Shown one piece after another: positions 12,666 through 37,573 of a stretch of 57,837 bases of DNA. A program made the position numbers and the translations under genes. Below the pieces are notes generated by a model. It was not told where the DNA came from, ran no database searches, and saw only the letters and a program-made list of their open reading frames with translations. Origin of the DNA: a virus; the IMG/VR virus record IMGVR_UViG_3300023087_000014, positions 1 to 57,837 of that record. One strand, given 5' to 3'. The first letter of the stretch is position 1; each line of letters begins with the position of its first letter.

Positions 12666-12698
12666 TGTTAGCCTCTTTGTGTTTTCTAAATGCCTAGT

Positions 12699-12712
12699 CG
12701 TTGTTTCCAACG
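12699..12712 (-). promoter_or_regulatory. GAAA-tetraloop hairpin in the leader of the DnaE-like gene
   Basis: On the minus strand CGTTG-GAAA-CAACG forms a 5-bp stem closed by a GNRA loop, 34 nt before the start codon. Possibly a translational operator; T4 polymerase is known to autoregulate through a leader hairpin. Confidence 0.4.
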
Positions 12713-12717
12713 CAAGA

Positions 12718-12725
12718 TATTTATT
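12718..12725 (-). promoter_or_regulatory. Possible late promoter of the DnaE-like gene
   Basis: AATAAATA on the minus strand, 52 nt before ATG 12665 and upstream of the tetraloop hairpin. Weaker match than the others. Confidence 0.35.
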
Positions 12726-12744
12726 TGTGTAACAATCACTTGGT

Positions 12745-13014
12745 TTAAATCTGGCTTGTCTTTGGTACTGGTTTAATGTGAGGGAACTTGATTGGAAACA
12801 GTGTAGCATATTTAGAATTGTCTGTATCTACGTAAATGTCACATCTACAAAAATGGTCTATTTGTGATTGGCTATGTATTAAAGCCCAATGCCAATTACG
12901 TATTTCAACTTCCTTATATAGTTCTTCACCAACTTCTCTACGGACCCAAAGTTTTTCAACACGTTGTCCTTTATGTGTCCATTTGTATTCTGTCTGACCT
13001 ATAAAATATCTCAA
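12745..13014 (-). CDS. Small protein, function unknown
   Basis: 89 residues starting with TTG at 13014, which overlaps the TGA stop of the upstream acetyltransferase-like gene; no Met codon lies inside the frame. Rich in Trp, Tyr, His and Lys, with a HFCRCD segment near residue 55. No family recognised. Coupled to the gene before it and separated by 79 nt from the DnaE-like gene. Confidence 0.6.
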   Translation of the reverse strand: MRYFIGQTEYKWTHKGQRVEKLWVRREVGEELYKEVEIRNWHWALIHSQSQIDHFCRCDIYVDTDNSKYATLFPIKFPHIKPVPKTSQI

Positions 13015-14863: not shown

Positions 14864-14893
14864 ATTATACTTTCTTATACCACTGATTGTCAA
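14864..14893 (-). promoter_or_regulatory. Sigma70-type promoter of gp41
   Basis: Minus strand TTGACA (14893-14888), 18 bp spacer, TATAAT (14869-14864), then 6 nt and ATG 14857. It lies across the end of the carbamoyltransferase gene. Confidence 0.8.
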
Positions 14894-15872
14894 GTGTTAT
14901 TTTTTGTTGTGACTGTGCTAAAACAGCACCTATGCTAGACCCTGGGTCTCCCGGATTCGGTGGTACCCAAATACTTTCCCAATGTCTACTAATTTTTGCA
15001 ACACCCTGTCTATTTAATGCACCACCCCCTGCAAGAGCTAAGTGGTCAGCGTCTGTTTTTTGATGAGCCAAATAGCTAATACAACTAAGGGCATCTTCAA
15101 AAATTGCTTGGGTAGCCGCGGCAATATCGTTCATATCTTGTTCTGTAGTTAAATCAGGTCGCCACCATTGGCACCCCCTATGTAAATTTTCTTTTGTGTT
15201 AAAGTATCTGTAGAAGAGCCCATGACTATTTCCTAGTAGATCTCTTTTTATGCTTTGATATAATCTAGTAGGATCACCTTTTTCTCCCATACTCGAAATC
15301 ATATATTCGTCACGCTGTGGTTGTAGCCCGCAACGTTGAGTCATAGCACTATAAAATAAACCAAGGCTGTGTGGATACCCTTGACTATAAATCTTTTTTA
15401 ACTTGTTATTTTTGCCGTGCCATACTGTTAGGGTTTCAAACTCACCAATACTATCTAAGCAAATGATTGCACAATTATCTTGAGGTTGTGTATAATAAGC
15501 ATAGGCCGCATGTGATAAATGATGTTGTACATATTCAATAGGAGCATCAATGTCCCAACGCTTTAAATATTTCTTTATATCGTTTTCTTCTTTTAACCAA
15601 CCCTGTCCTGCGTATGCTTGACGTAGAGTTTTTAACATAGGACGTTCATACCAAACTATTTTTTTAGGATATCCATAGCTTTGAATAGCAACTTGTAATT
15701 GCGTCCAATTAAAATCCGGATCATTAGGTACGTCACTAAAATCTCTAGACATACTAGCCCATAATAATTTTGTTTTGTAATGATCAGTTAATCCTTGTAC
15801 CTTGGTCCTAAATACCGCAAGACTGGCATCGTGACTGTTGCCAACCATTCCCCATGTTATCTTTTTTTCCAC
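14865..15872 (-). CDS. NodU/CmcH-type carbamoyltransferase
   Basis: 335 residues starting with GTG 15872, which overlaps the TAG of the upstream gene. HHLSHAAYAYY (about residues 118-128), a CLDSIGEFETLTVWHG segment and LALAGGGALN near 280 are hallmarks of O-carbamoyltransferases of the NodU/CmcH family, which transfer carbamoyl from carbamoyl phosphate to hydroxyls. Family members act on Nod factors and antibiotics, and phage members can act on modified DNA bases. It is shorter than typical 500-600-residue members. Between primase and helicase genes, a DNA-modification role is plausible but not shown. Confidence 0.85.
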   Translation of the reverse strand: MEKKITWGMVGNSHDASLAVFRTKVQGLTDHYKTKLLWASMSRDFSDVPNDPDFNWTQLQVAIQSYGYPKKIVWYERPMLKTLRQAYAGQGWLKEENDIKKYLKRWDIDAPIEYVQHHLSHAAYAYYTQPQDNCAIICLDSIGEFETLTVWHGKNNKLKKIYSQGYPHSLGLFYSAMTQRCGLQPQRDEYMISSMGEKGDPTRLYQSIKRDLLGNSHGLFYRYFNTKENLHRGCQWWRPDLTTEQDMNDIAAATQAIFEDALSCISYLAHQKTDADHLALAGGGALNRQGVAKISRHWESIWVPPNPGDPGSSIGAVLAQSQQKITLDNQWYKKV

Positions 15873-18056: not shown

Positions 18057-18425
18057 ATGTTATTAAAAGATATAGAAAAGAACTTTCCATTTATTAGTGT
18101 CGTACAATACGGCGGAAACGAATATGTTGGAATTATAATAAATCAAGATCAGTATGTAACATCTATGTATGTATACACTGATTTACGTTCTAGCAGAGAA
18201 CGAGAAGAGTTTTTAGACCTTGGAGGAGTATGGTGGTGGGAGTCAAATAGACTAATACCAATTAATATATTTCTACGTAAGGATATGGAAAAATTTAAAT
18301 ATGCTATTCAAACAATGAATAGCAAAGATGTGAAAGTAACAATAGGACCAATTGTAAACTTATTGAATATGACTGTCAAAAGAATAAAAAGAAAAAATGT
18401 TCAATTAGTTAAAAAGCCTAAATAG
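18057..18425 (+). CDS. Conserved marine T4-like phage protein, function unknown
   Basis: 122 residues from ATG 18057; an in-frame ATG at 17979 would overlap the divergent gene and its promoter, so it is rejected. The core YGGNEYVGII...LDLGGVWWWESNRLIPINIFL (about 18-75) is, from memory, well conserved among hypothetical proteins of marine T4-like phages. The last 20 residues are strongly basic. It is one of only three plus-strand genes within the long minus-strand block, and its 3' end overlaps the mini DnaE-like gene by 8 nt. Confidence 0.75.
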   Translation: MLLKDIEKNFPFISVVQYGGNEYVGIIINQDQYVTSMYVYTDLRSSREREEFLDLGGVWWWESNRLIPINIFLRKDMEKFKYAIQTMNSKDVKVTIGPIVNLLNMTVKRIKRKNVQLVKKPK

Positions 18426-18975
18426 CTTGTTCACAAATTAAATTCATATGCACAACACAAGCCATTGCATATGATACAGCATGTGCCTTCTTAAAAAAGT
18501 ATTCACCGTTGTTTGGTTTTATCCAAACTTCTTTTTCTATCGTTTGCCAATCCTTGTTCGCAAGATGTCTTTTTGCCGGACGAATGATTGCTAGTGTTGC
18601 GGCTAGTTGTGGTATCGAGATAGGCTTCAATTGTTTTAAGAGACTGTCGTGTCCGCTTAGATGAAATACCTGATCTACGAATTCTTTGTGCTCCAATAGT
18701 TCCCATAGTGGTTCCTTTTTCATTAGGTTTGCCAAATGTGTCTCATCTTTCACATCTTTGTATATAGACACATTAAGAAAATCTAATTTGAAGTATCCTC
18801 GTTCTTCTGCTGTTTCATAATCTATAGTAGATAACATATCGACAGGATTGTGTGGAATTTCAGTTGCATAAATTCCTGTATTATGTTTTTTGCCTGTGTC
18901 AAGTTTTGCCACACGATGTTTTAGTTTATCTAAAATAATACTACGATCTGCAAAGTCAATATCGATATCAGGCAT
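18418..18975 (-). CDS. Mini DnaE-like protein (Pol III alpha palm fragment)
   Basis: 185 residues that begin exactly at the catalytic motif, MPDIDIDFADR (residues 1-11), continue with KLDFLNVSIY (about 63-72, third Asp) and end with FKKAHAVSYAMACVVH (about 160-176), the counterpart of the DnaE K-S-H-A-x-x-Y fingers motif. RPAKRHL near 130 is also retained. PHP, thumb and OB parts are absent. From memory, a similar short gene occurs in cyanophages. It may be a regulatory or structural relic rather than a polymerase. Overlaps the gene upstream by 8 nt. Confidence 0.78.
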   Translation of the reverse strand: MPDIDIDFADRSIILDKLKHRVAKLDTGKKHNTGIYATEIPHNPVDMLSTIDYETAEERGYFKLDFLNVSIYKDVKDETHLANLMKKEPLWELLEHKEFVDQVFHLSGHDSLLKQLKPISIPQLAATLAIIRPAKRHLANKDWQTIEKEVWIKPNNGEYFFKKAHAVSYAMACVVHMNLICEQAI

Positions 18976-21151: not shown

Positions 21152-21854
21152 AGTCGTTGGTCTCAATGTAATTTTGTTGTGCCATTTTGTGATGGATAAG
21201 TTTCCAGTCGTCTGTTTCATCTAAAATCTTTTCTACTTTATCTACATATTCGATCATTCTGTCTGTTACAGAAAAATTGGTTTGTTTTAAATATTCTAAA
21301 TGATGCTTTGGTGTCCAATGAGAATCTTGTTGTTTCTGTACTACAAATTTTTTACTAGGTAATGTATTAAAAAATTTTCTAAACGGAATATCAAAATTGT
21401 TCATTGTATTTAATTGTGGTAAGCTCTGATTATCTACACATTCGATTTCAAAGTCTGGAGCAATCATTTTGTAGCTGTATACATTCATATCTAAGTATTG
21501 CATTACTAATTTTATATACATTTGCGTATGCCATTCGTAGCTATCTTCATCAAAGCAATATTTGTTTATTGTATCTTGTACAGCATCATTATTATTTGCT
21601 AGGTTTCCTCCTTGATACCAACCTGCACTACCTCTATGAAAATCAAAACGTGTAGGATATGTCCATTGTACAATTAGTTCATCTTCGTCAGACATTTTAT
21701 CTGCTATCTCTATAGCACGATGCATAATTGCATAGTTGCCAAATCCACTTTGCCCCCAATTTTCATATTCATCAAATTCTTGGGCAAGTATATCTGCATA
21801 CGTAGGCCAACAGTATCTAGTGTGACTACAACCTACTACATAAAGTTTACTCAC
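21141..21854 (-). CDS. SGNH-hydrolase-like protein
   Basis: 237 residues. VVGCSHTRY (about 5-13) resembles the SGNH nucleophile block with Ser in G-C-S, and QDSHWTPKHHLEYL (about 180-193) carries the late D-x-x-H pair. The glycine block NWGQSGFGNYA (about 32-42) also fits. Family enzymes deacylate sugars or lipids. Its placement between the Kdo genes and the kinase and nucleotidyltransferase suggests glycan editing. Overlaps both neighbours, so it is operonic. Confidence 0.68.
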   Translation of the reverse strand: MSKLYVVGCSHTRYCWPTYADILAQEFDEYENWGQSGFGNYAIMHRAIEIADKMSDEDELIVQWTYPTRFDFHRGSAGWYQGGNLANNNDAVQDTINKYCFDEDSYEWHTQMYIKLVMQYLDMNVYSYKMIAPDFEIECVDNQSLPQLNTMNNFDIPFRKFFNTLPSKKFVVQKQQDSHWTPKHHLEYLKQTNFSVTDRMIEYVDKVEKILDETDDWKLIHHKMAQQNYIETNDYGR

Positions 21855-22306
21855 AGCTTAACCTCAATATTATATTCTTTGGCTATCTCTTTTAATTCTT
21901 TTTTAGTATGCATTGATGCTAAAATTTCAACTTCTCTTTGTTTCATGTTAGGATAAATTTGTTGTAATAATTTTACTCCTTGAGCATTTGTTTGTGCATC
22001 TTTTTTCTTGAACCCAATCCATTGGTGAAATTGTATTTTTCCTGTGTTTCCTGATTGGCATAATAATTGCCATTGAAGTTTAGGATGTTTCGAAACAACC
22101 ATATAATTTTTGTTATAATATTCATTTGTTTTAAAAACTGCAAGTTCTTGATCCTCTCTATTACCTTTTACACTAGATACATATCTGTTTAACAGCCAAA
22201 AACTAACTTGTTTCTTTTCATCGTCAGATAGTTCGTCCCATACGTTTTTTGCGCCCATATCAACAGCCGCAAGTATATCCTTTATTGGGAGTTTTTGCTG
22301 TGCCAT
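21851..22306 (-). CDS. Conserved phage protein, function unknown
   Basis: 151 residues, mainly helical, with ELSDDEKKQVSFWLLNRYVSS (about 26-46), KHPKLQWQLLC and FHQWIGFKKK segments and a C-terminal helical repeat. I recall comparable hypothetical proteins in cyanophages and considered a clamp-loader (gp62) assignment, but the sequence does not show a convincing match. ATG lies within the end of kdsB (25-nt overlap). Confidence 0.7.
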   Translation of the reverse strand: MAQQKLPIKDILAAVDMGAKNVWDELSDDEKKQVSFWLLNRYVSSVKGNREDQELAVFKTNEYYNKNYMVVSKHPKLQWQLLCQSGNTGKIQFHQWIGFKKKDAQTNAQGVKLLQQIYPNMKQREVEILASMHTKKELKEIAKEYNIEVKL

Positions 22307-22965
22307 TTATCAACATCCTTTGGTTCGTTTATTTCTACACCATTAAAGTATACACTCGAACAGCCTATTTGCCAACCATTTTTTAACCATCGTAGCTGTT
22401 CTAATTTTTCAACTTGTTCTTCTTGTTCTACTTCATACGTATCATAAAATTCTAACGGATTACGTTTATACCCGTAAACGCCTAGATGCCATTCACCGTA
22501 GCCTGTCATACCTCTGCCAAACCAAAGAGCTTGATCTCCTGCACGTACCATCTTAACACTGTTAGGATCATTTTGCATTTCCTTTGGCATTTCAGTGTAC
22601 ACAGTGCTTATAGGATAGTGCTTGAGCCATTCAATACAACGGCTTATTATTTGTTCTGTTACATCTGGCATATCACCTTGAACATTTACAAATTGATCGT
22701 ACTCTTTAAGCACATCCCATTTGTTTACTGCACCTGTACATCTTTCAGTACCGTTGTCGTATTCTTCATTATCTAAATAGCAATTTGGTCCAATTACATT
22801 ATAAATGCGTTGGTCATCTGTAAGAACGTAAGTATCAATACCAGTTGACTTACATGTGTTGTATACACGCTTTATCATTGGTACGCCACCTAGCTCAACT
22901 AATGGCTTACCTTCAAATCGTGTGCTTCCGTATCTAGCCGGAATAAGAATAGCGGTTGATGTCAT
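22282..22965 (-). CDS. kdsB: CMP-Kdo synthetase (KdsB)
   Basis: 227 residues. IPARYGSTRFEGKPL (about 8-22) is the CTP-binding signature, GTERC (about 74-78) matches G-T-D-R, VNVQGDMP (about 93-100) matches the V-N-V-Q-G-D-E-P loop with the metal-binding Asp, and HLGVYGYKR and EQLRWL (about 156-200) follow the family order. Reaction: CTP + Kdo to CMP-Kdo + PPi. It is slightly shorter than the usual 245-250. Overlaps kdsA by 32 nt, so Kdo synthesis and activation are coupled. Confidence 0.9.
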   Translation of the reverse strand: MTSTAILIPARYGSTRFEGKPLVELGGVPMIKRVYNTCKSTGIDTYVLTDDQRIYNVIGPNCYLDNEEYDNGTERCTGAVNKWDVLKEYDQFVNVQGDMPDVTEQIISRCIEWLKHYPISTVYTEMPKEMQNDPNSVKMVRAGDQALWFGRGMTGYGEWHLGVYGYKRNPLEFYDTYEVEQEEQVEKLEQLRWLKNGWQIGCSSVYFNGVEINEPKDVDKWHSKNSQ

Positions 22966-23707
22966 CGATTACCCTTTCAAAGTCTTGTAGTTTTAACATG
23001 TTAGGACCGTCACTTGGTGCATTGTCCGGATCGGCATGTACTTCTAAGAAGAAGTTTTTTATACCAAGTGCAGATGCAGAGCGAGCCATCCCAGGAACAT
23101 ACCCACGGTTACCGCCGCTACTATCGCCCATTCCTCCCGGTTTTTGAACCGAATGGGTAACATCAAAAACAACAGGAACATTATAGGTATCAAGCAGATA
23201 CTGCAAGCCAGTGAAATCAACGACCAAAGTATTATATCCAAAACTTGTTCCTCTCTCTGTTATCCAAATTTCTTTTGCACCTTCTGTTTTACTTAGTATA
23301 CCTTTGACATCCCACGGTGCAAGGAACTGTCCTTTTTTAATATTGACTATTTTATTTGTTTTACATGCGGCTTGTAATAAATCTGTTTGTCTGCACAAGA
23401 ATGCAGGAATTTGTAAAACATCTACACATTCTTCGTAATATGCCGCAATTTTTAAAATTTCATTTTGGTTGTGTACATCAGTTAAAGTTTGTACACCCAG
23501 CTCGTCTTTTAATATAGCAAAATCTATCATAGTATTTTTTAAACCAACACCACGTTTGCCCTTTACATTTGTTCTGTTTGCTTTATCAAAACTAGCTTTG
23601 AATACATATTCTATATTGTGTTTATCGCATACACGTTTACACTCTTTAGCAATTTCATAACTTTGTGCCAGTGTTTCGTGTTGACACGGTCCTGCAATTA
23701 TTCTCAT
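22934..23707 (-). CDS. kdsA: 3-deoxy-8-phosphooctulonate synthase (KdsA)
   Basis: 257 residues. IAGPCQHE (3-10), FKASFDKANRT (about 37-47), TDVHNQ, QIPAFLCRQTDLL (about 100-112), DVTHSVQKPGG and FFLEVHADPDNAPSDGPNML (about 213-232) are family motifs. The Cys in GPC is the metal ligand of the metal-dependent class. Reaction: arabinose 5-phosphate + phosphoenolpyruvate to Kdo 8-phosphate. Neither the phosphatase KdsC nor the isomerase KdsD is in the window, so they must come from the host or lie elsewhere. Confidence 0.93.
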   Translation of the reverse strand: MRIIAGPCQHETLAQSYEIAKECKRVCDKHNIEYVFKASFDKANRTNVKGKRGVGLKNTMIDFAILKDELGVQTLTDVHNQNEILKIAAYYEECVDVLQIPAFLCRQTDLLQAACKTNKIVNIKKGQFLAPWDVKGILSKTEGAKEIWITERGTSFGYNTLVVDFTGLQYLLDTYNVPVVFDVTHSVQKPGGMGDSSGGNRGYVPGMARSASALGIKNFFLEVHADPDNAPSDGPNMLKLQDFERVIDDINRYSYSG

Positions 23708-23961
23708 TCTCCGTCCTTTACAATATAATATATGTCTAACAACTTTTGCATTTGTTTTTTCAAAGTTACATGCTTGTCTGCTAATAACATCATATCTTGC
23801 CAGTCACTGTAGCTAAACAAACAACCTTGTTCTTTTTGAACTGCGTCTGCGTCTCCGCCTATTATCCAACGTTCTATTTCAGGTTTGTCGCGATAACGAG
23901 CGTACACAACACCGTTGGCACGCTCGTATATCAAGGGTTCATTGGGCAATAACTTACCCAT
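23704..23961 (-). CDS. Small protein, function unknown
   Basis: 85 residues with a helical C-terminal half (about 50-85). It begins MGKLLPNEPLIYERANGVVYARYRD and carries a cluster of charged residues; no zinc or membrane motif. It sits between the YhhQ-type transporter and kdsA, and overlaps kdsA by 4 nt. From memory, related small proteins occur in marine T4-like phages. No function can be assigned. Confidence 0.68.
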   Translation of the reverse strand: MGKLLPNEPLIYERANGVVYARYRDKPEIERWIIGGDADAVQKEQGCLFSYSDWQDMMLLADKHVTLKKQMQKLLDIYYIVKDGE

Positions 23962-23964
23962 AAA

Positions 23965-24636
23965 CTATGCTTTCTTTTTCCTACCACGTTTAGGTTTAAC
24001 TTCATCTTTTAAGACTAAAGCATCAACACCAAACTTATTTTTTAATGTGGCAAGTAACACACCGTATGCTGGAAGGAATACAATTAAACCTACAACAATT
24101 TTAGTTAATGTGTTATTAAATGCTACACCGTGTACCCAAGGTGCTGGGTAAAACGCTGTGTAAAAGAATGCGTAAGTATCGATGATATTTGCGGCAATAG
24201 TTGAAATTGCTGGTGCCGCCCACCATGCTTCCGTATACTTTTCTCTAATGTGTTGAAATACATATACATCAAGCATTGTACCAATTGCATAAGCAACACC
24301 TGAAGCAATACCTACTCTGTAAGCATGTTCATCGCCTAGTGCTAGTAGTACAAGTACTGAAGCAATAATCGCAGGAATAATAGCCATAGCTACTACAGCA
24401 CGACCTGCTTCCTTACCAACTAAACGTACAGTTAAGTCAGTTGCAACTACAACAATCGGAAATGTAAATGCGGCCGCCGCAAGTGGAAACTCACCAAACA
24501 ATGGTAAGTCTGCGCCAGGAAACACATTAAATCTAATTGTTACTAAGTAATTTGACACAGCAATTACAAGCGTATGTAAAATTACTAAATTGCGAACAAG
24601 TGTCTTATCAACACCGTCTAAAAGTTTTTGGAACAT
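23965..24636 (-). CDS. yhhQ: Queuosine-precursor transporter (YhhQ/VUT family)
   Basis: 223 residues with a GGGAGA site. About six membrane helices, with the conserved early segment FTFPIVVVATDLTVRLVGKEAGR (about 58-80), SGVAYAIGTMLDVYVFQHIRE (about 112-132) and IDTYAFFYTAF, as in YhhQ proteins that import 7-deazaguanine precursors (preQ0/preQ1). The last 20 residues are Lys-rich. It lies next to folE, whose product starts preQ0 synthesis. The phage may feed tRNA queuosine or a deazaguanine DNA modification; the other que genes are not in the window. Confidence 0.9.
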   Translation of the reverse strand: MFQKLLDGVDKTLVRNLVILHTLVIAVSNYLVTIRFNVFPGADLPLFGEFPLAAAAFTFPIVVVATDLTVRLVGKEAGRAVVAMAIIPAIIASVLVLLALGDEHAYRVGIASGVAYAIGTMLDVYVFQHIREKYTEAWWAAPAISTIAANIIDTYAFFYTAFYPAPWVHGVAFNNTLTKIVVGLIVFLPAYGVLLATLKNKFGVDALVLKDEVKPKRGRKKKA

Positions 24637-24656
24637 ATTTTATTCTCCCTTTGGTT

Positions 24657-25343
24657 TTATTTAGGTGCAAACTGTTGCTGGAGTTTAATGTTATCCATAA
24701 ACTCTTTTTTTGTTCCTGCATCGTCTGCGAATGCACCTTTTAACACAGTAGTCTGCGTTAAACTTGAGTGTGCGCCTATTCCACGGTTTTCACAACAACC
24801 GTGTGTTGCTTGGATATATACACCTACATTTTCCGAACCTGTAGCTTGCATGATTTCTCGTGCAATGTCCATAGCAAGTTCTTCTTGTAGTGTACCACGT
24901 CTTGCACACCATTGTGCTAAACGTGTATACTTGCTTAATCCAATTAAAGTATCTGCCGCAATAATACCTATATAAGCTACACCGCTAACTGGTTGATGAT
25001 GATGCGAACACATTGATTTGAGTTCGCTTCTTACAACTAACATTCCTTTATAAGGATCGTTTGTAACATTTGGAAATGCAGTAGCATTAGGACGTACATC
25101 ATATCTACCACTCATAATTTCATTAAAATACATTTTTGCTAGACGTCTTGCAGTGTCTTGTGAATTAGGATCATTCTTACGATCTATAACTAAACAGTCT
25201 AGTACATTTTCAAATGCTTTAGTTGCTTCTTCAATTAGTTCTTCTTTATCGCCTTTTTGCATAACATAAGAGATATTGTCTCCTGCCCAATAGCGAATAC
25301 CTTCTTCTTCAAGGCGTGTTCTTAGTTGTAAACTTTTGCTCAT
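24657..25343 (-). CDS. folE: GTP cyclohydrolase I
   Basis: 228 residues. ELKSMCSHHHQPVSG (about 106-120, zinc-binding Cys and His), GLSKYTRLAQWCARR (about 136-150), QEELAMDIA and YIQATHGCCENRG (about 177-189) follow the FolE order. It converts GTP to 7,8-dihydroneopterin triphosphate, the first step of folate and 7-deazaguanine pathways. A sigma70-type promoter with a 40-nt leader and a GGAGAAA site precedes it. Confidence 0.93.
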   Translation of the reverse strand: MSKSLQLRTRLEEEGIRYWAGDNISYVMQKGDKEELIEEATKAFENVLDCLVIDRKNDPNSQDTARRLAKMYFNEIMSGRYDVRPNATAFPNVTNDPYKGMLVVRSELKSMCSHHHQPVSGVAYIGIIAADTLIGLSKYTRLAQWCARRGTLQEELAMDIAREIMQATGSENVGVYIQATHGCCENRGIGAHSSLTQTTVLKGAFADDAGTKKEFMDNIKLQQQFAPK

Positions 25344-25384: not shown

Positions 25385-25413
25385 AATATACAACATATTT
25401 AGGTTAATGTCAA
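25385..25413 (-). promoter_or_regulatory. Sigma70-type promoter of the folE operon
   Basis: Minus strand TTGACA (25413-25408), 17 bp spacer, TATATT (25390-25385); leader of about 40 nt to ATG 25343. The -35 box overlaps the end of the cupin gene. Confidence 0.8.
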
Positions 25414-25763
25414 GAAGTTTTTGTTCCAACTGTACGCCTAACTATGTCATTATGGTTAAATTCAGCCCAATAAAGCTCAAATGCAACACCATTTTCTAGT
25501 CCTTCGAACTGATGCACTAAGCCTGGTTTAACTTGTGTAAAGTCACCTGCTTCAAGAATAGTTTCGTCTACTAAACCATCTTGATCTGCTGTTTGCCAAA
25601 CACGTACAAGCATCTTACCTGACTCTACAAAAAAGCCATTCCATTTATACTTGTGTTCATGTTCACTACATTTGAATCCTTTTTTGAATTCAATGCGATG
25701 GAACTCTAGTACTCCATTTGCATGGATAAGTTCTGTCTGTCCCCATATCTTGCCTGCTTTCAT
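25410..25763 (-). CDS. Small cupin protein
   Basis: 117 residues, AGGAGA ribosome site. CSEHEHKYKWNGFFVESGKMLV (about 32-53) is cupin motif 1, and GDFTQVKPGLVHQFEGLE (about 73-90) is motif 2 with its His. A single-domain cupin of this kind may bind a metal and act as a sugar epimerase or dioxygenase, but no substrate can be read. Its stop lies within the folE promoter. Confidence 0.75.
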   Translation of the reverse strand: MKAGKIWGQTELIHANGVLEFHRIEFKKGFKCSEHEHKYKWNGFFVESGKMLVRVWQTADQDGLVDETILEAGDFTQVKPGLVHQFEGLENGVAFELYWAEFNHNDIVRRTVGTKTS

Positions 25764-28967: not shown

Positions 28968-28996
28968 AGTATAACTTAATTTAACTTAGATGTCAA
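28968..28996 (-). promoter_or_regulatory. Sigma70-type promoter of the uvsW operon
   Basis: Minus strand TTGACA (28996-28991), 17 bp spacer, TATACT (28973-28968), then 6 nt and ATG 28961. It straddles the end of the upstream glycan gene. Confidence 0.82.
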
Positions 28997-29827
28997 GAGG
29001 TTAAGTGGTAAACCTTGAGAAATTTCTTCAACAGTAAATTCTGTCCATGCATAGTCATTTAACCATTGTTGTCTATCAGGTGTCAAAGGATTTTCTATAT
29101 CGTGTAAGAAATCAATATCATTTGCGGCATCATATGCTAAACTATGCGGACTTACAAATGCAGGCACACCTTCAAGTATACTGTGTATACCTGGATTACT
29201 ACTCCAACTTATTGTTGCCCAAGCATTATTAAATCCCATATCAAAATCATCATATGTACCATTAATATGCTTAGGTTCTTGCCGAGAAACATTCTTGTAT
29301 TGGTGTTCTATAGCTTCTAATCTACACCTTGGATGTGGACGGAATACAATAGGACGATCAGTATGCTGTTGTATTTTATCTATGGTTTGCATTACCCAAG
29401 TACTCATTCTTGGCATGTCTTGCCATTGCAAACTTCTTTCATGTTGTCCGCAAATTAGTATATGATTTCCTTGTTCTCGCCATGGCTTTAAAAGTAACCC
29501 AAGATTATCAGCGCGATCAGAGTTATTATTAACGGGACCAAAATAAGCATCACGATTAATTCCATTAAGAGCTACCTTCCAAGTTGATCCACGTCTAATA
29601 CCTCCGACTTCGAGAACAATACAGGCTCTATTTTCTTTTTGACACCTTTCCCAGATAGTACGGTTTGGACCCATACGACCGTTAAAAAGTACACTCCAAA
29701 TAACATCAATACCATCATTACTATTAGTGACAACATCATGACCGAGAGCCAAAGCACCATTACGAAAGGCGTCAAAAACAGGTTTAGAATTTTGTGCGCC
29801 ATACTGAGTCCATAAGTTAAATTTCAT
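28976..29827 (-). CDS. KpsC/KpsS-like capsule glycosyltransferase, paralog A
   Basis: 283 residues. IVFRPHPRCR (about 158-167), a WATISWSSNPGIHSILEGVPAFVSP stretch (about 205-230) and the ending WLNDYAWTEFTVEEISQGLPLNLL are shared with the three paralogs at 31, 32 and 36 kb. The R-x-HP pattern and the E-G-[IV]-P-x-F loop resemble capsule-synthesis proteins of the KpsC/KpsS type, GT-B-like enzymes that transfer Kdo. This copy retains HP. Its 5' end overlaps the next gene by 11 nt. Confidence 0.72.
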   Translation of the reverse strand: MKFNLWTQYGAQNSKPVFDAFRNGALALGHDVVTNSNDGIDVIWSVLFNGRMGPNRTIWERCQKENRACIVLEVGGIRRGSTWKVALNGINRDAYFGPVNNNSDRADNLGLLLKPWREQGNHILICGQHERSLQWQDMPRMSTWVMQTIDKIQQHTDRPIVFRPHPRCRLEAIEHQYKNVSRQEPKHINGTYDDFDMGFNNAWATISWSSNPGIHSILEGVPAFVSPHSLAYDAANDIDFLHDIENPLTPDRQQWLNDYAWTEFTVEEISQGLPLNLLTSKLN

Positions 29828-30662
29828 TCCAATATGCTTCTGATCTTTCTGTCATTAAATCTTTTTTCTTACTATGACCTGTATACTTACGATCACCTTT
29901 CATATGATCAATATATCTACCTAGTTCAGTGTTAATGAGTGGATGACCTCCACCGCCTGTCTTTGCAGTTTTTACATATATTGATGCGCTATAATCTAAT
30001 GCCCTTGGATTATAATTTTTATGTTTCATTAAGATATGACCAAATACATAACTATCATGCCATTCTTCTAATGTAAATATTCCAGTCTCTGCATTATTAT
30101 AATAATCTTTAAATTCTTTTATGAAGTTTACACACTGTTTGTCGTTTTTATTCAAACCATAAAATCCACATTCGGGCCAAGTTTGAGATCCTGCTCCTCT
30201 GCCTACATAAGTGATCCAACTTTCTTTTGGTAGTAATTTTGCAAAGTTTTCATGACTCCAAGCACTATGAACGTATGTATCTCCGTCAACCCATACTATC
30301 CAATCAGCTGGTTCGTTTTCGTAAGCGTCAAATACTGCATAAACTTTATGTGAAAATCTAATAGCGTCCCATTTAAATTCTTTATGCCAATCTCTTGGAC
30401 GTCTGCGTTTTATTTCAGGCGGAGGTGTACCAGTCGCTTTTGGTTCATTTTTCCAGCGTTCAATAAATGCTTTCTTTTCTGGTAAAGCATCTGCATTTAA
30501 AATTTGTATATTTGCTCCTTCAGGGATTGTAGGGACACAATCCTCTGCATAGACTAGCAGTTTAATTTTTGGATCTACATTTTTTGCCCAACTGTCTATT
30601 AATCTCTGGCCGTATGTAAAAAGTCCTTCGTTATTAAATGTTGTTAAAGCTACAATATTCAT
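29817..30662 (-). CDS. GT-A type glycosyltransferase (DxD), paralog 1
   Basis: 281 residues. WIVWVDGDTYVH (about 119-130) carries the D-x-D metal motif, preceded by FKWDAIRFSHKVYAVFDAY, and WPECGFYGLN (about 157-166) and WHDSYVFGHIL (about 200-210) follow. The same three blocks occur in the gene at 36785-37573, so the two are paralogs. Likely transfers a sugar from a nucleotide donor onto a phage-made glycan. Operonic: 1 nt separates it from the upstream KpsS-like gene. Confidence 0.78.
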   Translation of the reverse strand: MNIVALTTFNNEGLFTYGQRLIDSWAKNVDPKIKLLVYAEDCVPTIPEGANIQILNADALPEKKAFIERWKNEPKATGTPPPEIKRRRPRDWHKEFKWDAIRFSHKVYAVFDAYENEPADWIVWVDGDTYVHSAWSHENFAKLLPKESWITYVGRGAGSQTWPECGFYGLNKNDKQCVNFIKEFKDYYNNAETGIFTLEEWHDSYVFGHILMKHKNYNPRALDYSASIYVKTAKTGGGGHPLINTELGRYIDHMKGDRKYTGHSKKKDLMTERSEAYWNEI

Positions 30663-30663
30663 G

Positions 30664-31605
30664 TTATTCCTTTACTGCCCATTTACGCATGTGACGCCAT
30701 GCTTCGCCTGCGGCTACTTCGTCAAGAGTCCAGTGGCATTGTGCAAGTTTATGTAGCCAACCTTCTCTTTCAAATTCTTTTGGTTCGTTAATATATTTCA
30801 TATCACTATGTACAACATCTTTAGCCTGGCTTCTTTCTACATCTGTTTGGAATGTAGGTATGCCTTCGATAACACTTGCAACGGCAGGACTACTATTATG
30901 GTTTACTACTGCACAAGCGGTTGCAAAGTCAGTGAAGATATTTTCACTATTGCTTATTCTTAAATTTCCAATTTTATATCTTGCAAGATGTCTTATATGA
31001 TTTCTTACATTTTTATCTCCAGGATGAAATCTAACTACAATTTGTTTGTCAGTATAATGTCTTACTTGAGTAACTGTTTGTACAATCCAACTTACAACAG
31101 GCTCTGAATCCATACTCCAACCACCGTCTCTTTGGCAACATAAAAGTATTGTACCACCGTCGGGTTTTCGCCAAGGTTTAACTTTTATGTTCAAATCTTT
31201 ACTAAGTTTTTCCCACCTGTAAGGGTTAGGATTATCATAACAATATTCACCAGTAGTTGGAAATACTCCATCAAAGCTATACCGTAAATATGTTTTTGTA
31301 TTACCTGGATCAAAACTTAAAAACAAATTACTATCTACAATTACACATCTTTTATTTCTAAGGATTTGATTTTCGTATACTTGTTTTCTTAACCGTAAGT
31401 GTCTTGTGTTTTTACTGTTTGCATGAACAAATCCTTGTATTACTGCTACATCAGTATTCATAGGATGCCAGCCCGTTACTACTGCACCTCTGTCTCCACA
31501 TGCATTTACACCTTTAATAAAATCATTTATAATTCTAGGTTTTTCAGGATTGGTATTTCCTGGAGGAATACCCATTAAGTATGAAGCAACAGTTAATCCA
31601 TTCAT
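30664..31605 (-). CDS. KpsC/KpsS-like capsule glycosyltransferase, paralog B
   Basis: 313 residues. ILLCCQRDGGWSM (about 156-168), IVVRFHPGDK (about 197-206), CAVVNHNSSPAVASVIEGIPTF (about 236-257) and WLHKLAQCHWTLDEVAAGEAW near the end define the same family as paralogs A, C and D. HP and the acceptor loop Glu are retained, so this copy looks catalytically intact. Its ATG overlaps the stop of the upstream gene (ATGA). Probable role: adding Kdo or a related sugar to surface polysaccharide or lipid. Confidence 0.74.
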   Translation of the reverse strand: MNGLTVASYLMGIPPGNTNPEKPRIINDFIKGVNACGDRGAVVTGWHPMNTDVAVIQGFVHANSKNTRHLRLRKQVYENQILRNKRCVIVDSNLFLSFDPGNTKTYLRYSFDGVFPTTGEYCYDNPNPYRWEKLSKDLNIKVKPWRKPDGGTILLCCQRDGGWSMDSEPVVSWIVQTVTQVRHYTDKQIVVRFHPGDKNVRNHIRHLARYKIGNLRISNSENIFTDFATACAVVNHNSSPAVASVIEGIPTFQTDVERSQAKDVVHSDMKYINEPKEFEREGWLHKLAQCHWTLDEVAAGEAWRHMRKWAVKE

Positions 31606-32435
31606 CGTATGTCGTGCTCCTGTATAATTCTGTATGCTTCTCCATTTACAAGTTCATCAGTTGTAAACTGACAGTAACATAACCAGTGTAACCAATTTTG
31701 CACAAGTTGCGGGTCGCTATACTTGGGTGTTTCTAATTTACTAAGGTCTTTTTCACATAGCATATCAGCCGCACCTGGAGCAGTTGTAAATGCTGGTACA
31801 CCATACATAATAGCTTCAGTTGCCGCAATACTGTTGTATGTTACTACAGCAAAAATTTTATCTTCATCAAACTGATTAAAGATGCTTCCGTCACCTATTC
31901 TTTGATGACGTAGTCCTTTATCTCTAACAATTATTTCTTTGTCAGTATATTTTTTTATTAGTTCTGTTGTTTCTTTTACCCAGTCATCTCTGTTGATTCC
32001 ATAAAATTTACAAGGCTTTTCGGAAGGTGTTACTAGTAAAATATTCCTTCCTTGATTTTTTGATTTAGTCCAGCCTCTAAATGCGTAGCTAAAATCTCTA
32101 GCTCTACCAGACAGTTCTCTCCATCTATCATTTGGCAAGTTTTTAAAGTTACTGTGTTGCATACCATTTTTTACTACTCTATGAAATACTTTTCTTTTTT
32201 GTCTATTACCTAAATATCCAGTATCAATATAAAAATAATCTCGGCCTGTTCTTTCACATTCAGCAACAATTTTTCTACCAGTCATACCTCTAAAACTTAC
32301 TGGTAAATTGGTATCATATTCTTTCAGTTGTTTCCAATCGTGTATGTAAGTTGCACCAATGCCCTTGGTCCAACATTTTAATATTTGATCATTTTCATCT
32401 ATTGCTAGATGATGTTTTACAGATCCATCATGCAT
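31602..32435 (-). CDS. KpsC/KpsS-like protein, paralog C (HP motif lost)
   Basis: 277 residues from ATG 32435, which has CAGGAA 5 nt upstream; ATG 32453 gives 283. LLVTPSEKP, AVVTYNSIAATEAIMYGVPAFTT (about 205-227) and WLHWLCYCQFTTDELVNGEAY match the paralogs. Where A, B and D have R-x-HP this copy reads IIVRDKGLRHQR, so the usual donor-binding HP is missing. The acceptor loop also has MYG instead of E-G. It may be inactive, or may have changed donor specificity. Confidence 0.68.
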   Translation of the reverse strand: MHDGSVKHHLAIDENDQILKCWTKGIGATYIHDWKQLKEYDTNLPVSFRGMTGRKIVAECERTGRDYFYIDTGYLGNRQKRKVFHRVVKNGMQHSNFKNLPNDRWRELSGRARDFSYAFRGWTKSKNQGRNILLVTPSEKPCKFYGINRDDWVKETTELIKKYTDKEIIVRDKGLRHQRIGDGSIFNQFDEDKIFAVVTYNSIAATEAIMYGVPAFTTAPGAADMLCEKDLSKLETPKYSDPQLVQNWLHWLCYCQFTTDELVNGEAYRIIQEHDIR

Positions 32436-33091
32436 TTTAATTCCTGTTTCCATAATTCATTGTATTCACAGTTTCGGTAGTTTTCAAACCAAGGACCACC
32501 TTCTGTATAATGTATTAGTTTTGGTGTCTCTACATCGTCATAAACACCAACAAGATAATTCCAAGTATGATCCAATTCTCCAATTTCTTCATCTTTTAAC
32601 CAACTAAATCTATGCAAGTAGGCACCATTAATTTCTTTATCATTAACAAGATCCATAGTAAGTTTTGCATTACTAGGATGACCACAGTTAAACAACATCA
32701 CACTTGACCAATTTTTACGTGGATAGATAGTTTGTTTTTGTCCATCCATTTTTGTACCTTCTTTAACTTTGTAGTCATGATGTACACACATTACAGCATA
32801 CTTGTCATCTGCTTGATCAAACAGTTCTTTTATATCTGTTGTTAAGATCATATCACAATCCATAAACACAGCCCAACCTTCAAAATTTACAAGTTCAGGT
32901 ATAAGAAACCGTGTAAACGTAAATTCAGTTGATGCTAGTTTATCTATTGGACGAGTATACCAACCTGCATCTCTTAATTCCTGTTGTTTTAACGGACGCA
33001 CATCTGCATCGGGACTTCTTGTTTCGATACTGTGCTTGCACACTTGATATGCAATATCTTCTCTAGTATCATAGCCTACAAATATTTTCAT
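32417..33091 (-). CDS. GT8-like glycosyltransferase
   Basis: 224 residues. IFVGYDTREDIAYQVC (3-18), STEFTFTRFLIPEL (about 54-67), VFMDCDMILTTDI (about 73-85, D-x-D), SSVMLFNCGHP (about 130-140) and LDHTWNYLVGVYDD...KLIHYTEGGPW near the end follow the order seen in GT8 enzymes and related stress-type transferases. It transfers a sugar from a UDP-type donor with metal help. Its ATG overlaps the preceding gene's stop (ATGA), and its own end overlaps paralog C. Confidence 0.8.
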   Translation of the reverse strand: MKIFVGYDTREDIAYQVCKHSIETRSPDADVRPLKQQELRDAGWYTRPIDKLASTEFTFTRFLIPELVNFEGWAVFMDCDMILTTDIKELFDQADDKYAVMCVHHDYKVKEGTKMDGQKQTIYPRKNWSSVMLFNCGHPSNAKLTMDLVNDKEINGAYLHRFSWLKDEEIGELDHTWNYLVGVYDDVETPKLIHYTEGGPWFENYRNCEYNELWKQELKCMMDL

Positions 33092-33858
33092 TTTCTTTCT
33101 ATATCCTCCTCAACACAATTTTTTCCATATTGTATTTCAACTAATTTCAATGGTTCGTTATGTTCATTAACAAGTTGATGCCATGTGTTTACAGGTATGT
33201 GTAAACTTCTGTGTTGTTCATAAACTCCAAGTAAATCAACGTCGGAACTACTGTCTAGAGTATATACTGTTGCAGTTCCTTCAGCTACAAACCAATGTTC
33301 GCTACGTTCTGCATGTCTTTGCATTGATAGTCTTTTACCCGGAGGTACTGTTAATTCTTTTACTTTAGTATGTCTGTCATATTCATGTATCACTCTATAA
33401 TACCCCCAACTACGTTCTGTTTTAGGCGCTTTCCATTCATCTAATATCCAACTACTAGAATTTATTTTATTTTCTCCACCTACACCAAACGCAAATTCAA
33501 CTTTAGGCAATTCTCCGTATGTTTCATATTCTGGTGTAGTGGTGTTTGTTCTATCTCCACCGTTAGCAAAAACAATTTTAACATCTCCATGAGTTGCCAT
33601 TGTTTTATAGATTGCACCACATGCACTGCCGTCACTGTCATCAAAACTTATGACTCTGTCAACAATACTTAGTTGTTCAATAACATTTGCTCTGTCCTTA
33701 AAAGACATAAAAGGACGTCCTTTTTTATTTGTAAGCCAATCGTCTGAATTTAAACCTACATGTAATTCATCACCTAAAGATTTAGCCGCCTTAAAATATT
33801 CAATATGGCCTGAATGTAAAGGATCAAATCCTCCTGTTACTAATACAATAGTTTTCAT
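33088..33858 (-). CDS. Cytidylyltransferase-cupin fusion for nucleotide-sugar synthesis
   Basis: 256 residues. Residues 1-145 are an HxGH nucleotidyltransferase: VTGGFDPLHSGHIEYF (about 7-22), VGLNSDDWLTNKKGRPFM and NSSSWIL (about 132-138). Residues 150-256 are a cupin: PPGKRLSMQRHAERSEHWFVAEGTATV (about 173-200) and IPVNTWHQLVN, like the C-terminal part of mannose-phosphate isomerase/guanylyltransferase proteins. The fusion suggests one protein that activates a sugar-phosphate and also isomerises or binds it. AAGGAC site. Confidence 0.82.
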   Translation of the reverse strand: MKTIVLVTGGFDPLHSGHIEYFKAAKSLGDELHVGLNSDDWLTNKKGRPFMSFKDRANVIEQLSIVDRVISFDDSDGSACGAIYKTMATHGDVKIVFANGGDRTNTTTPEYETYGELPKVEFAFGVGGENKINSSSWILDEWKAPKTERSWGYYRVIHEYDRHTKVKELTVPPGKRLSMQRHAERSEHWFVAEGTATVYTLDSSSDVDLLGVYEQHRSLHIPVNTWHQLVNEHNEPLKLVEIQYGKNCVEEDIERK

Positions 33859-34760: not shown

Positions 34761-35372
34761 ATGGTTGAGATCAAACATTTATATACAGGAAGTAAACACA
34801 CAATAGTAAGTTTCTCTAGTATTGGAAACACTATACAAGGTGTTAATAGAGAATTCTATAATTTAAAAAATAATGGTTATAATGTAATATGGGTGTTAGA
34901 TCATAATAAAAGTTATTTCAGTGCAATAGATATAAATGAAATAACCAAACATATTAAAACTTATAACGTCTACGCTATAGGTAATAGCATGGGAGGATTC
35001 AATGCAATTATGTTTAGTAATTTTTATCCCACACAAAAAGTCCTTGCATTTAGTCCTCAATTTAGTATGGACAAAACAATAGTTCCTTGGGAAGATAGAT
35101 GGCGTAAACAAATAACTTGGAAAAAATTTAAATATCCAAAAGCTACGTTTGTAAACTGGACCAACTATTGTTTAATTACAGGACACAAAGCCAAAGATCA
35201 AAAACATATGAGTATGATGCCTGATACTCCTAATATTAATAAACAGACTGTATTTGGTGGACATGTAATTGCAGAAAAATTTAAAAAGTCGGGAAATTTG
35301 TATACATTAATTAATGATTATTTTAAAGAAGATGTAAAAATTACTGAACCGTATTTACAAAGCCTTCTTTAA
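34761..35372 (+). CDS. Alpha/beta-hydrolase-like protein
   Basis: 203 residues. YAIGNSMGGFNAIMFS (about 71-86) contains the G-x-S-x-G nucleophile elbow at the right distance from an upstream beta strand, and FGGHVI (about 170-175) provides a candidate catalytic His. No signal peptide is seen. It is the only plus-strand gene in the glycan cassette, divergent from the SGNH-like gene; its end overlaps paralog D by 18 nt. Could act as an esterase on a glycan or lipid. Confidence 0.72.
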   Translation: MVEIKHLYTGSKHTIVSFSSIGNTIQGVNREFYNLKNNGYNVIWVLDHNKSYFSAIDINEITKHIKTYNVYAIGNSMGGFNAIMFSNFYPTQKVLAFSPQFSMDKTIVPWEDRWRKQITWKKFKYPKATFVNWTNYCLITGHKAKDQKHMSMMPDTPNINKQTVFGGHVIAEKFKKSGNLYTLINDYFKEDVKITEPYLQSLL

Positions 35373-36224
35373 GTGCTCCCATGGCAATCCGGCTACACAT
35401 TCATCTTCACGCCATTGACAATATGCTAGATTGTTGAGCCATTGTTGTCTTTCAAACATCATAGGCTGTTCAATAAGTTTTAATGTTTTATTTGAAACGT
35501 CCCAAGCCATTGAACTAGGACACATGCTGAATGTTGGTATTCCCTCCATAACACTTTCTGTAAGTCCGTTACTGTTAAAGCCTACAACACACCAAGCATT
35601 ATCAAAGTCTTTTTGTAATCCTGTACCACCTTCTAAAATTCCTGCACCTTCCATATTATCACTTATAGTAACATCAAAGTTCTTCAGTATTGCTAACTGT
35701 CTATCTTGACGTAATGGATGCATACGTACTCTAATAGGTCTATCAGTATTTTGCTTTATCTCTTGTAGTGTATGCGTTACAAATCCTTCGTAACTTTTGT
35801 GCTTCTTTATTAAATTTACTAAGCTACTATCTCCAGGACGTTGTAGCATAACAAGGACATAATCACCTTTTGTGCGCCAATCTTTAACTGTAAGATTTTG
35901 ATCTTTTTTAACCTGCTCCCATCTATCTGATGGACTATTTTCATTACAGTAATCGCCTTCGTCTCTAAAATAACTTGTCCAACTGTATCTGTGATATGCC
36001 ATTGGATTAGGTGGTTGTGGCATATTTTTTCTAAACACTGCACTTTCAGTTACAATAAAAGGCTTACCAGATTCTTTTACATATTTGTAAATGTGTCCTA
36101 TTTTCTTTTCTTTTTTTGATCCGGACTGATTACTTTGCACGAGTACATCTGCATTCTCTATTGTACCTTTGTCACTAAATGGTACAGTTATCCAATCCTT
36201 AGGCAAAGGATGATAACTCCACAT
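35355..36224 (-). CDS. KpsC/KpsS-like capsule glycosyltransferase, paralog D
   Basis: 289 residues from ATG 36224, 7 nt after the upstream stop; the frame is open to a TTG at 36275. VLVMLQRPGDSSLV, IRVRMHPLRQD (about 181-191), CVVGFNSNGLTESVMEGIPTF (about 218-238) and WLNNLAYCQWREDECVAGLPW near the end are shared with the other paralogs. HP and the acceptor Glu are kept. Closest by eye to paralogs A and B. Expected to transfer Kdo or a similar acidic sugar. Confidence 0.74.
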   Translation of the reverse strand: MWSYHPLPKDWITVPFSDKGTIENADVLVQSNQSGSKKEKKIGHIYKYVKESGKPFIVTESAVFRKNMPQPPNPMAYHRYSWTSYFRDEGDYCNENSPSDRWEQVKKDQNLTVKDWRTKGDYVLVMLQRPGDSSLVNLIKKHKSYEGFVTHTLQEIKQNTDRPIRVRMHPLRQDRQLAILKNFDVTISDNMEGAGILEGGTGLQKDFDNAWCVVGFNSNGLTESVMEGIPTFSMCPSSMAWDVSNKTLKLIEQPMMFERQQWLNNLAYCQWREDECVAGLPWEHLKKAL

Positions 36225-36231
36225 TAGTTCT

Positions 36232-36792
36232 TTAATAGCTACTATTTTCAAAAAATAATCCTCTATTTCGAACAAACGCTTTCTTACGTTTGTGTGCGTT
36301 CATTGTGCTCACTTGTCTAATTACATCTGTATATGCTCTTATATGAAAGAATCCATATTCTTTAAATTTATCAATCCAATATTGTTCTTCTTGCAAGTTT
36401 ACATGATGATGACCTTTCCAGCCTGGAGGTGCGTATGTCATTATCACATACTTACATTGTTGAAATGCTGGCATATAATTTGGTTGGTATTCTTCGTACA
36501 CATGTTCAACAAATTCTACACTCCAACCTAAATCATATTTTTCTTTTATAGGCGCAGGACCTTTTGTAAAATCATGAATTAAAAAATTGTTAGCATTTTT
36601 TCTTTCAAGAGTATGATCGCCATCTACACCTAATACTTTTAAATTTTTCTCTTCAGCAAGTTCAACCATGCCGCCTGGACCGCAACCTATATCAAGATAG
36701 CTTTTTATACCTAATGTTTTTATACACCAGTTAATAACACCTTCATCTAGATGTGTTTTATTTCCATGTCCGCCAAGATGTTCTTCAAGCAT
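36232..36792 (-). CDS. SAM-dependent methyltransferase of the glycan cassette
   Basis: 186 residues. YLDIGCGPGGMVELAEEK (about 35-52) is motif I, GVDGD (about 57-61) motif II, LGWSVEFVEHVYEEY (about 84-98) motif IV/V, and KAYVIMTYAPPG-like KYVIMTYAPPGWKGHHHVN (about 112-131) follows. A class I methyltransferase, probably capping or modifying the glycan by O-methylation. Starts inside the end of the GT-A gene (8-nt overlap). Confidence 0.85.
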   Translation of the reverse strand: MLEEHLGGHGNKTHLDEGVINWCIKTLGIKSYLDIGCGPGGMVELAEEKNLKVLGVDGDHTLERKNANNFLIHDFTKGPAPIKEKYDLGWSVEFVEHVYEEYQPNYMPAFQQCKYVIMTYAPPGWKGHHHVNLQEEQYWIDKFKEYGFFHIRAYTDVIRQVSTMNAHKRKKAFVRNRGLFFENSSY

Positions 36793-37573
36793 TTTGTCTA
36801 CGTCTTTCTTCTAACATAAAGCGTTTCAAAAACTTTTGCTGTAAACGTTCTTTGTTTTTTCCTTTAGTGTGTACCATAACTTCTTTTATACCGCTATTGT
36901 TAAAAGGACTTTTATTATTCACAGGATTGGGATTTAAATTTAAAAATTGACTCTGATCATCATAGCTAAGTCGCAATTGATAAAAGACCCAACTATCGTG
37001 TGTTTCACGCAAATGATCTAAACCGGTAAGGTATAAATTTTCAAACTTATTTAAAAAATCTTTTGCTAGTGGGTTATTTAAATTATAACCCATTAATCCG
37101 CATTCATCGTATTCATTAGGACGTCCTAGGTAAGATATAGCTTTGTCTTCTGGAAATAATCTTTTTAAATATTCATGATCAATAAACTGATGCATTAGGA
37201 CGTCAGCATCTAACCATATCAAATATCCTTCATCAAGTGTCTTAGCTTCTGTAAAAATAGAAAATGTTTTATGAGCAAACTTTATTCCATTCCATTTAAA
37301 TGCTTTTGAACTGCCTTCTAACTTGCGTCCTATTTGCCCATTGTAATGAGGATTATCTTTATGTTTTAATTTAAACTCAACTAAAGGTTTACATAAGTCG
37401 TACAAAGGCTTGTAAACTAAACGTTTGTTAACTCTGTCAGTGTGTATTAAATCTTCACTGTAAACAACGATATTTACATCGTCTGGTAAGCAGTTGCACC
37501 AGCTTTCTAAATTAATTTTACTTGTTGAATTCCAGTAGTCTTTATTTAGACTTGTAACAAAGGTATATTTCAT
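36785..37573 (-). CDS. GT-A type glycosyltransferase (DxD), paralog 2
   Basis: 262 residues. FKWNGIKFAHKTFSIF (about 92-107), YLIWLDADVLMH (about 115-126, D-x-D), CGLMGYNLNNPLAK (about 155-168) and HDSWVFYQLRL (about 190-200) parallel the gene at 29817-30662. The N-terminal KYTFVTSLNKDYW and VVYSEDL segments fit a nucleotide-sugar binding fold. First gene of the cassette, 18 nt after uvsY; ATTAAATA lies 5 nt before ATG. Confidence 0.78.
   Translation of the reverse strand: MKYTFVTSLNKDYWNSTSKINLESWCNCLPDDVNIVVYSEDLIHTDRVNKRLVYKPLYDLCKPLVEFKLKHKDNPHYNGQIGRKLEGSSKAFKWNGIKFAHKTFSIFTEAKTLDEGYLIWLDADVLMHQFIDHEYLKRLFPEDKAISYLGRPNEYDECGLMGYNLNNPLAKDFLNKFENLYLTGLDHLRETHDSWVFYQLRLSYDDQSQFLNLNPNPVNNKSPFNNSGIKEVMVHTKGKNKERLQQKFLKRFMLEERRRQNA

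Follow-up and report, generated by a model that had tools for sequence, protein, structure and literature searches.

Genes for Kdo, a sugar found on the outer surface of bacteria, have been recorded in viruses before: viral kdsA and/or kdsB are counted among the auxiliary metabolic LPS genes of marine viruses in the portions of two reports that treat such genes (PMC10653327, PMC9529941), and the corresponding portion of another places KdsA in one complete marine virus genome together with other LPS genes (PMC5332604). In those portions the genes appear singly, rather than as a lineage-fixed kdsAB operon with Kdo-transferase-fold genes. The main texts of two papers on jumbo phages (PMC12619734, PMC7824862) contain neither "Kdo" nor "octulos", and a large ocean catalogue treats contigs that carry LPS-type genes as potential host islands and drops them (PMC11360552). 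We found no description of a kdsAB operon combined with such transferases in the open-licence literature. What is new here is a fixed kdsAB operon, an odd KdsB subfamily and linked Kdo-transferase-fold paralogs, all seen in a virus record of 57,837 bases (the window, i.e., the whole stretch of DNA that was analyzed) and its relatives.

The window and its virus

The terminase of the window has 55% identity to that of Pseudomonas phage PA5oct and its relatives, and the very long tail sheath (1079 aa; 49042-52281) is nearest to those of Sinorhizobium phage Phosso, PA5oct-type phages and Agrobacterium phage Atu_ph07. Since the genomes of these related phages measure 285-490 kb, the window most likely represents one part of the genome of a jumbo T4-like myovirus. 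Its gene order is found again on many marine contigs, which argues against a chimera. The host can be inferred only loosely, from the Alpha- and Gammaproteobacteria infected by the relatives and from the alphaproteobacterial look of the genes. The region of 18418-18975 and 11022-12809 encodes a 595-aa protein with a two-domain match to DNA polymerase III alpha and a separate 185-aa ORF (63 loci) that starts MPDIDIDFADR, resembling the Pol III alpha palm motif; the Pol III alpha of this virus is thus possibly split or reduced. A carbamoyltransferase with a PF02543 N-terminal domain (14865-15872) adjoins a DnaB-type helicase gene and is kept in 33 loci.

The kdsA-kdsB locus

The minus strand of the window encodes KdsA, a Kdo-8-phosphate synthase of 257 aa (22934..23707), directly followed by KdsB, a CMP-Kdo synthetase-like cytidylyltransferase of 227 aa (22282..22965). 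An earlier note on this DNA, made from the letters alone, had placed the two genes side by side at 22282-23707 and proposed that they are translationally coupled; both ends match, and the coupling stands, as the ATG of kdsB lies 32 nt within kdsA. The resulting 32-nt overlap is found again in many relatives. The start of kdsA overlaps by 4 nt a small conserved gene on the same strand (23704..23961; 57 loci), and the end of kdsB overlaps by 25 nt the next gene, a conserved minus-strand member of PHROG 11758 (21851..22306; 75 loci); with overlaps at all three junctions, the genes form one tightly packed run. A conserved Cupin_2 protein is encoded nearby on the same strand (25410..25763), and also in a second phage lineage with kdsAB (locus L013; see below). 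Adjoining kdsA, at 23965-25343, are genes for GTP cyclohydrolase I and a Vut_1/YhhQ-type transporter, and a QueD-like gene takes this spot in some relatives; by their families, these genes point to 7-deazaguanine metabolism, i.e., queuosine or DNA modification.

When viral contigs were scanned with the KdsB alignment, at least 585 relatives were recovered, and the 80 retained are 64-100% identical to the query. Both genes are present on 86 of the 91 phage loci listed; on some of the five loci without kdsA beside kdsB, the contig end is too near to judge. Among the loci listed, the neighbors are kept as well, with the gene after kdsB in 75 and a UvsW-like helicase in 62. The dN/dS of kdsAB against relatives is approximately 0.1-0.25, indicating purifying selection, with values of 0.10-0.15 for kdsB against six relatives. 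As judged from sequence and gene order, kdsAB occurs widely and in conserved synteny among marine jumbo phages, far beyond chance.

Identity of KdsA

KdsA passes both equivalog cut-offs, scoring 336 bits with PRK05198 (cut-off 242) and 322.9 with TIGR01362 (cut-off 314), and the solved structure nearest to it is 3fs2, with the Aquifex enzyme next. The metal ligands of KdsA are Cys, His, Glu and Asp. In the alignment, C8, H185, E222, D233, F36-S39, K42-R45, C105-Q107, D109 and L110 are invariant, and the KASFDKANR and CRQTDL motifs are both found. The identity proposed from the letters is therefore upheld by the equivalog cut-offs together with the conserved metal and substrate motifs. The phage protein has a Cys at the position of the Asn of the E. 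coli enzyme, and hence is presumably of the metal-dependent type. It begins right at the first conserved strand and is without the short extension that E. coli KdsA has at its N terminus.

KdsB and its altered Mg-A site

KdsB (PF02348) is more divergent in sequence. Its best-matching families are all KdsB, with 160.5 bits at best (cut-off 193), and all scores lie below the respective cut-offs (155-281), including that with TIGR00466 (108.9; cut-off 155.2). Structure comparison carries the assignment further: the AlphaFold2 model (pLDDT 93.8) has KdsB structures as its top 16 matches (Z 24.9-30.8, the values for 1gqc and for 3duv, which has substrate bound, being 30.8 and 30.4), and the next is GlmU at 22.4. 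By its predicted fold, the protein is thus clearly a CMP-Kdo synthetase, and the earlier assignment holds although the equivalog cut-offs are not reached. NeuB/NeuA-type enzymes, raised earlier as a family that might prove nearer, were not among the Pfam and NCBIfam matches of either protein, and every one of the best-matching solved structures is a KdsA or a KdsB.

The CTP-loop residues R10, R15 and K19 and their partner R78 are invariant in 87 of 87 phage rows, as are H181, E210 and R213. Besides the Mg-A change described next, two differences mark the clade: the protein lacks a loop of some 15 residues, and E101 is replaced by Met in 85 of 87 phage rows. At the Mg-A site the first Asp is kept and the second is Asn (D235N) in 84 of 85 clade rows and 84 of 87 phage rows; KdsB of the unrelated phages S-SCSM2R and LR756500 keeps the second Asp. 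The earlier note had named missing active-site residues as evidence against its reading; the KdsA motifs and the CTP-loop residues of KdsB are in place, and one Mg-A Asp of KdsB is not. In the Aquifex aeolicus enzyme the Mg-A aspartates are D95 and D219, and the changed aspartate has been termed strictly conserved (PMC3149649). Among 118 cellular KdsB rows sampled, 112 have Asp and 6 have Asn at this residue, so that the presence of both aspartates is not a strict definition of the family. Four of these six are roseobacter-type proteins, three of them encoded on roseobacter plasmids. A first cellular set had suggested that D235N was unique to phages, an idea that fell when roseobacter and further cellular sequences joined the set. 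In the structurally related GlmU, the Mg ligands are an Asp and an Asn. As the same Asn occurs in roseobacter KdsB from kpsF-kdsB-kdsA operons, it does not mark the enzyme as dead; on the alignments, it is a subfamily trait and not a sign of decay, with which the low dN/dS of kdsB agrees.

These clade-specific changes bear on the sugar that is activated. KdsB could accept another substrate, e.g., 8-amino-Kdo or another ulosonic acid, with the resulting CMP-sugar being used by the transferases described below. The fixed Met at residue 101 and shortened loop would fit such a shift, and a pseudaminic acid transferase is a homolog of KpsC (PMC12887879); however, KdsB is paired with a canonical KdsA, and no KdnA/KdnB-, NeuB- or PseI-like gene was recognized among the recurrent neighbors. 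We regard a different sugar as decidedly unlikely, and very probably the phage pair synthesizes CMP-Kdo, as family, fold and selection would predict of its catalysis.

Origin of the two genes

Set against cellular genes to time the transfer, the phage KdsA and KdsB proteins each form a single clade with a long stem (SH-aLRT 99 and 100 in the two trees). The nearest cellular sequences are alphaproteobacterial in both cases: of roseobacter type for KdsB (SH-aLRT 94), and from roseobacters, Rhodobacter and Sinorhizobium for KdsA (SH-aLRT 90). These are quick trees with SH-aLRT support only and thin proteobacterial sampling, the Proteobacteria of the cellular set coming from plasmid records; the best 80 loci listed from a non-exhaustive scan of genome contigs were nearly all from Bacteroidota. 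The trees support an old acquisition of kdsA and kdsB by the phage lineage, and the two genes were probably acquired together. An old transfer common to the whole lineage would make them part of the lineage gene set and not a recent host capture. The kds genes of S-SCSM2R and LR756500 likely have separate origins, which rests on long branches. The cellular set also included roseobacter-type kdsA and kdsB on a Bacillus velezensis plasmid from sea water (NZ_CP061939.1), whose assignment to Bacillus is probably a contamination or misassignment.

Transferase-fold proteins near kdsAB

Retaining beta-Kdo transferases are marked by a QXXXD motif (nucleophile) and a (K/R)XHP motif (CMP) (PMC12887879, PMC10148158). 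The window encodes four paralogous proteins, all on the minus strand, which share these motifs to different degrees: that at 35355..36275 has the full QXXXD and RXHP signature; that at 28976..29827 has RXHP and the Q with no Asp at Q+4; that at 30664..31605 has RXHP with no QXXXD; and that at 31602..32453 has neither. They begin 5.3 kb upstream of kdsA, against the 6 kb given for the KpsC/S-like proteins of the earlier note, and that resemblance is upheld by structure and not by sequence profiles. Searched with Pfam and profile methods against Pfam and PDB sequences, the family had no real match, leaving fold comparison as the only route, and PF05159 (Capsule_synth, KpsC/KpsS) did not exceed its cut-off in the window paralogs (best E 0.096) or in 13 relatives, its only match being in LR756500. 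The fold was compared for 28976-29827 alone of the four. With its AlphaFold2 model (pLDDT 89.9), Foldseek ranks 1-27 are all retaining beta-Kdo transferases (KpsC, WbbB and KrkA), and VIA-align likewise places these three first (Z 10.7-13.8, the best being 13.8 to 6mgc with 232 residues aligned); since other GT-B folds also reach a Z of 10.7, the match to KpsC is firm and that to KrkA weaker.

The motif pattern extends to the relatives. The 35355 type has both QXXXD and RXHP in 33 of 33 readable relatives, whereas QXXXD is absent in the other three types and (K/R)XHP is absent in the 31602 type only. The 28976 and 30664 types keep the Q and RXHP, with Ser or Gly at Q+4, and many of these proteins have an Asp at Q+2; it is a speculation from the alignment that this Asp might serve as a shifted nucleophile. 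The 31602 paralog likely does not transfer Kdo in the known manner, to go by its lost motifs.

Other predicted transferases lie in the same region, again on the minus strand: a GT-A-like protein recognized from its sequence, with a DGD motif and no Pfam match, placed between transferase-fold genes (29817..30662), its paralog (36785..37573), and a GT8-like glycosyltransferase (32417..33091) with a 49% identical homolog close to kdsB in cyanophage S-SCSM2R. One further gene on this strand (33088..33858) joins an HldE-C-like nucleotidyltransferase to a ManC-type cupin, which is an uncommon pairing of domains.

Of 17 contigs searched, all 12 testable ones of the window's lineage have three or four members of the transferase-fold family together with kdsAB. 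No member was detectable in the second marine lineage with kdsAB (L006, L010, L013, L024, L079), the fragments of which reach 157 kb. That lineage encodes a eukaryotic-type phosphomannomutase (PF03332; L013 13237-13968 and nine other loci). The distribution bears on whether the phage CMP-Kdo might merely top up the Kdo supply of host LPS or capsule, with the transferase-fold proteins unrelated to it. The second lineage speaks for this, as does the leaving of KdsC and KdsD to the host (see below); the constant company of the transferase-fold genes in the window's lineage and the coupling of kdsAB with a PF05159 protein in an unrelated phage speak against it, and we consider it unlikely. The linkage, the fold and the one intact motif set make it reasonably probable that the phage transferases use CMP-Kdo.

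A proposed Kdo pathway

KdsC (TIGR01670) and SIS/KdsD (PF01380) proteins were not found on 11 relatives, which are fragments of 68-237 kb, in keeping with the earlier statement that these steps are absent from the window; the simplest reading is therefore that arabinose-5-phosphate and the phosphatase are supplied by the host. LR756500 differs, in that a 408-aa protein directly after kdsB (L003 9725-10951) has a KdsD-like C-terminal SIS domain and an unrecognized N-terminal half.

We propose that the phage KdsA would condense PEP with host arabinose-5-phosphate to Kdo-8-phosphate, that host KdsC would remove the phosphate, and that the phage KdsB would convert Kdo to CMP-Kdo. The phage transferase-fold proteins, at least those of the 35355-36275 type, would then use CMP-Kdo to transfer Kdo to a glycan, with the neighboring GT-A- and GT8-like transferases working alongside them. 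The target would most likely be the surface glycan of the infected cell or the lipid-linked precursor of that glycan, with the capping or alteration taking place in the cytoplasm, and the altered surface might change receptors and block competing phages. This would suggest a virus lineage that remodels the sugar coat during infection.

In favor of this account are the KdsA cut-offs, the fold and invariant residues of KdsB, the joint occurrence of the pair in the listed loci and its dN/dS; and, on the side of the transferases, the fold of 28976, the fully conserved motifs of 35355, the paralogs on every testable contig and the pairing in the unrelated LR756500. Against it are the KdsB scores below the equivalog cut-offs and the loss of one Mg-A Asp; the missing nucleophile Asp in three of the four transferase-fold paralogs; the second lineage with kdsAB and without the transferase family; the absence of KdsC and KdsD from the relatives searched, all of them fragments; and the absence of an identified exporter or lipid acceptor gene in the window. 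On balance, we hold the whole account, from phage CMP-Kdo through phage transferases to a cell-surface glycan, to be slightly favored; its last part, modification of the cell surface by Kdo transfer to an acceptor of this kind, is somewhat doubtful when taken by itself.

The main rival concerns that last part: the Kdo glycan might decorate capsid or tail proteins of the virion and not the cell. The window has no obvious export path, and phage-encoded virion glycosylation has a mycobacteriophage precedent, as cited in PMC12619734. However, there is no direct sign of a glycosylated structural protein, and known Kdo transferases use lipid-linked or polysaccharide acceptors (PMC10148158, PMC12887879), so that virion decoration appears improbable. 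DNA hypermodification with CMP-Kdo is a far more remote prospect: there are other phages whose glycosyltransferases modify DNA (PMC12619734 and references therein), but the nucleotide genes here point to 7-deazaguanine instead, and there was no hydroxymethylpyrimidine synthase match among the proteins scanned.

A bolder version of the preferred reading, that of a cell-surface glycan, leaves the destination open: a marine jumbo lineage would build a Kdo glycan on the cell surface or virion with a CMP-Kdo operon and four diverged transferase-fold proteins, in some of which the nucleophile is changed and the mechanism perhaps new. We put this forward with more doubt than belief. If true, it would be, to our knowledge, the first known case of a Kdo glycosylation system encoded by a phage, and would show a way in which jumbo phages alter receptors or coats. 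The transferase-fold genes beside kdsAB give the pair a testable use, and the phage proteins add natural variants to two enzyme families studied as drug targets.

Comparison with known systems

The closest cellular counterparts are the kpsF-kdsB-kdsA operons of Roseobacteraceae (Roseivivax pTHAF197b_a and Pseudosulfitobacter pDSM107133_a), which like the phage keep kdsB and kdsA together and have Asn at the second Mg-A position of KdsB; in the trees, no cellular neighbors stand nearer to the phage KdsB than Roseobacteraceae, which are also among the closest for KdsA. They differ in the order kdsB-kdsA and the inclusion of kpsF, and their KdsB is only about 31% identical to that of the phage, with Ala and not Met at residue 101.

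Among phages, Synechococcus phage S-SCSM2R (PQ898602) resembles the window in its adjoining kdsA and kdsB and in the nearby GT8-like homolog; unlike in the window, the genes are convergent, and KdsB is 28% identical with the ordinary Asp, both proteins falling far from the clade in the trees. The two genes after its kdsB are without Kdo-transferase motifs. The uncultured 462 kb phage LR756500 likewise has a kdsA-kdsB tandem near a protein with a Kdo-transferase signature; it differs in the SIS gene beside kdsB, the retained KdsB Asp and the nature of the transferase, a PF05159 protein with QXXXD and KXHP.

KpsC (GT107), WbbB (GT99) and KrkA (GT140) share their fold with 28976-29827 over nearly the whole chain, and their QXXXD and (K/R)XHP motifs with the 35355 type. 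At 10-16% identity, the window paralogs are single modules of approximately 280-310 aa, and three of the four are, unlike these enzymes, without the catalytic Asp. Whereas viral Kdo genes have so far been listed singly, here the pair is a fixed and selected part of a lineage.
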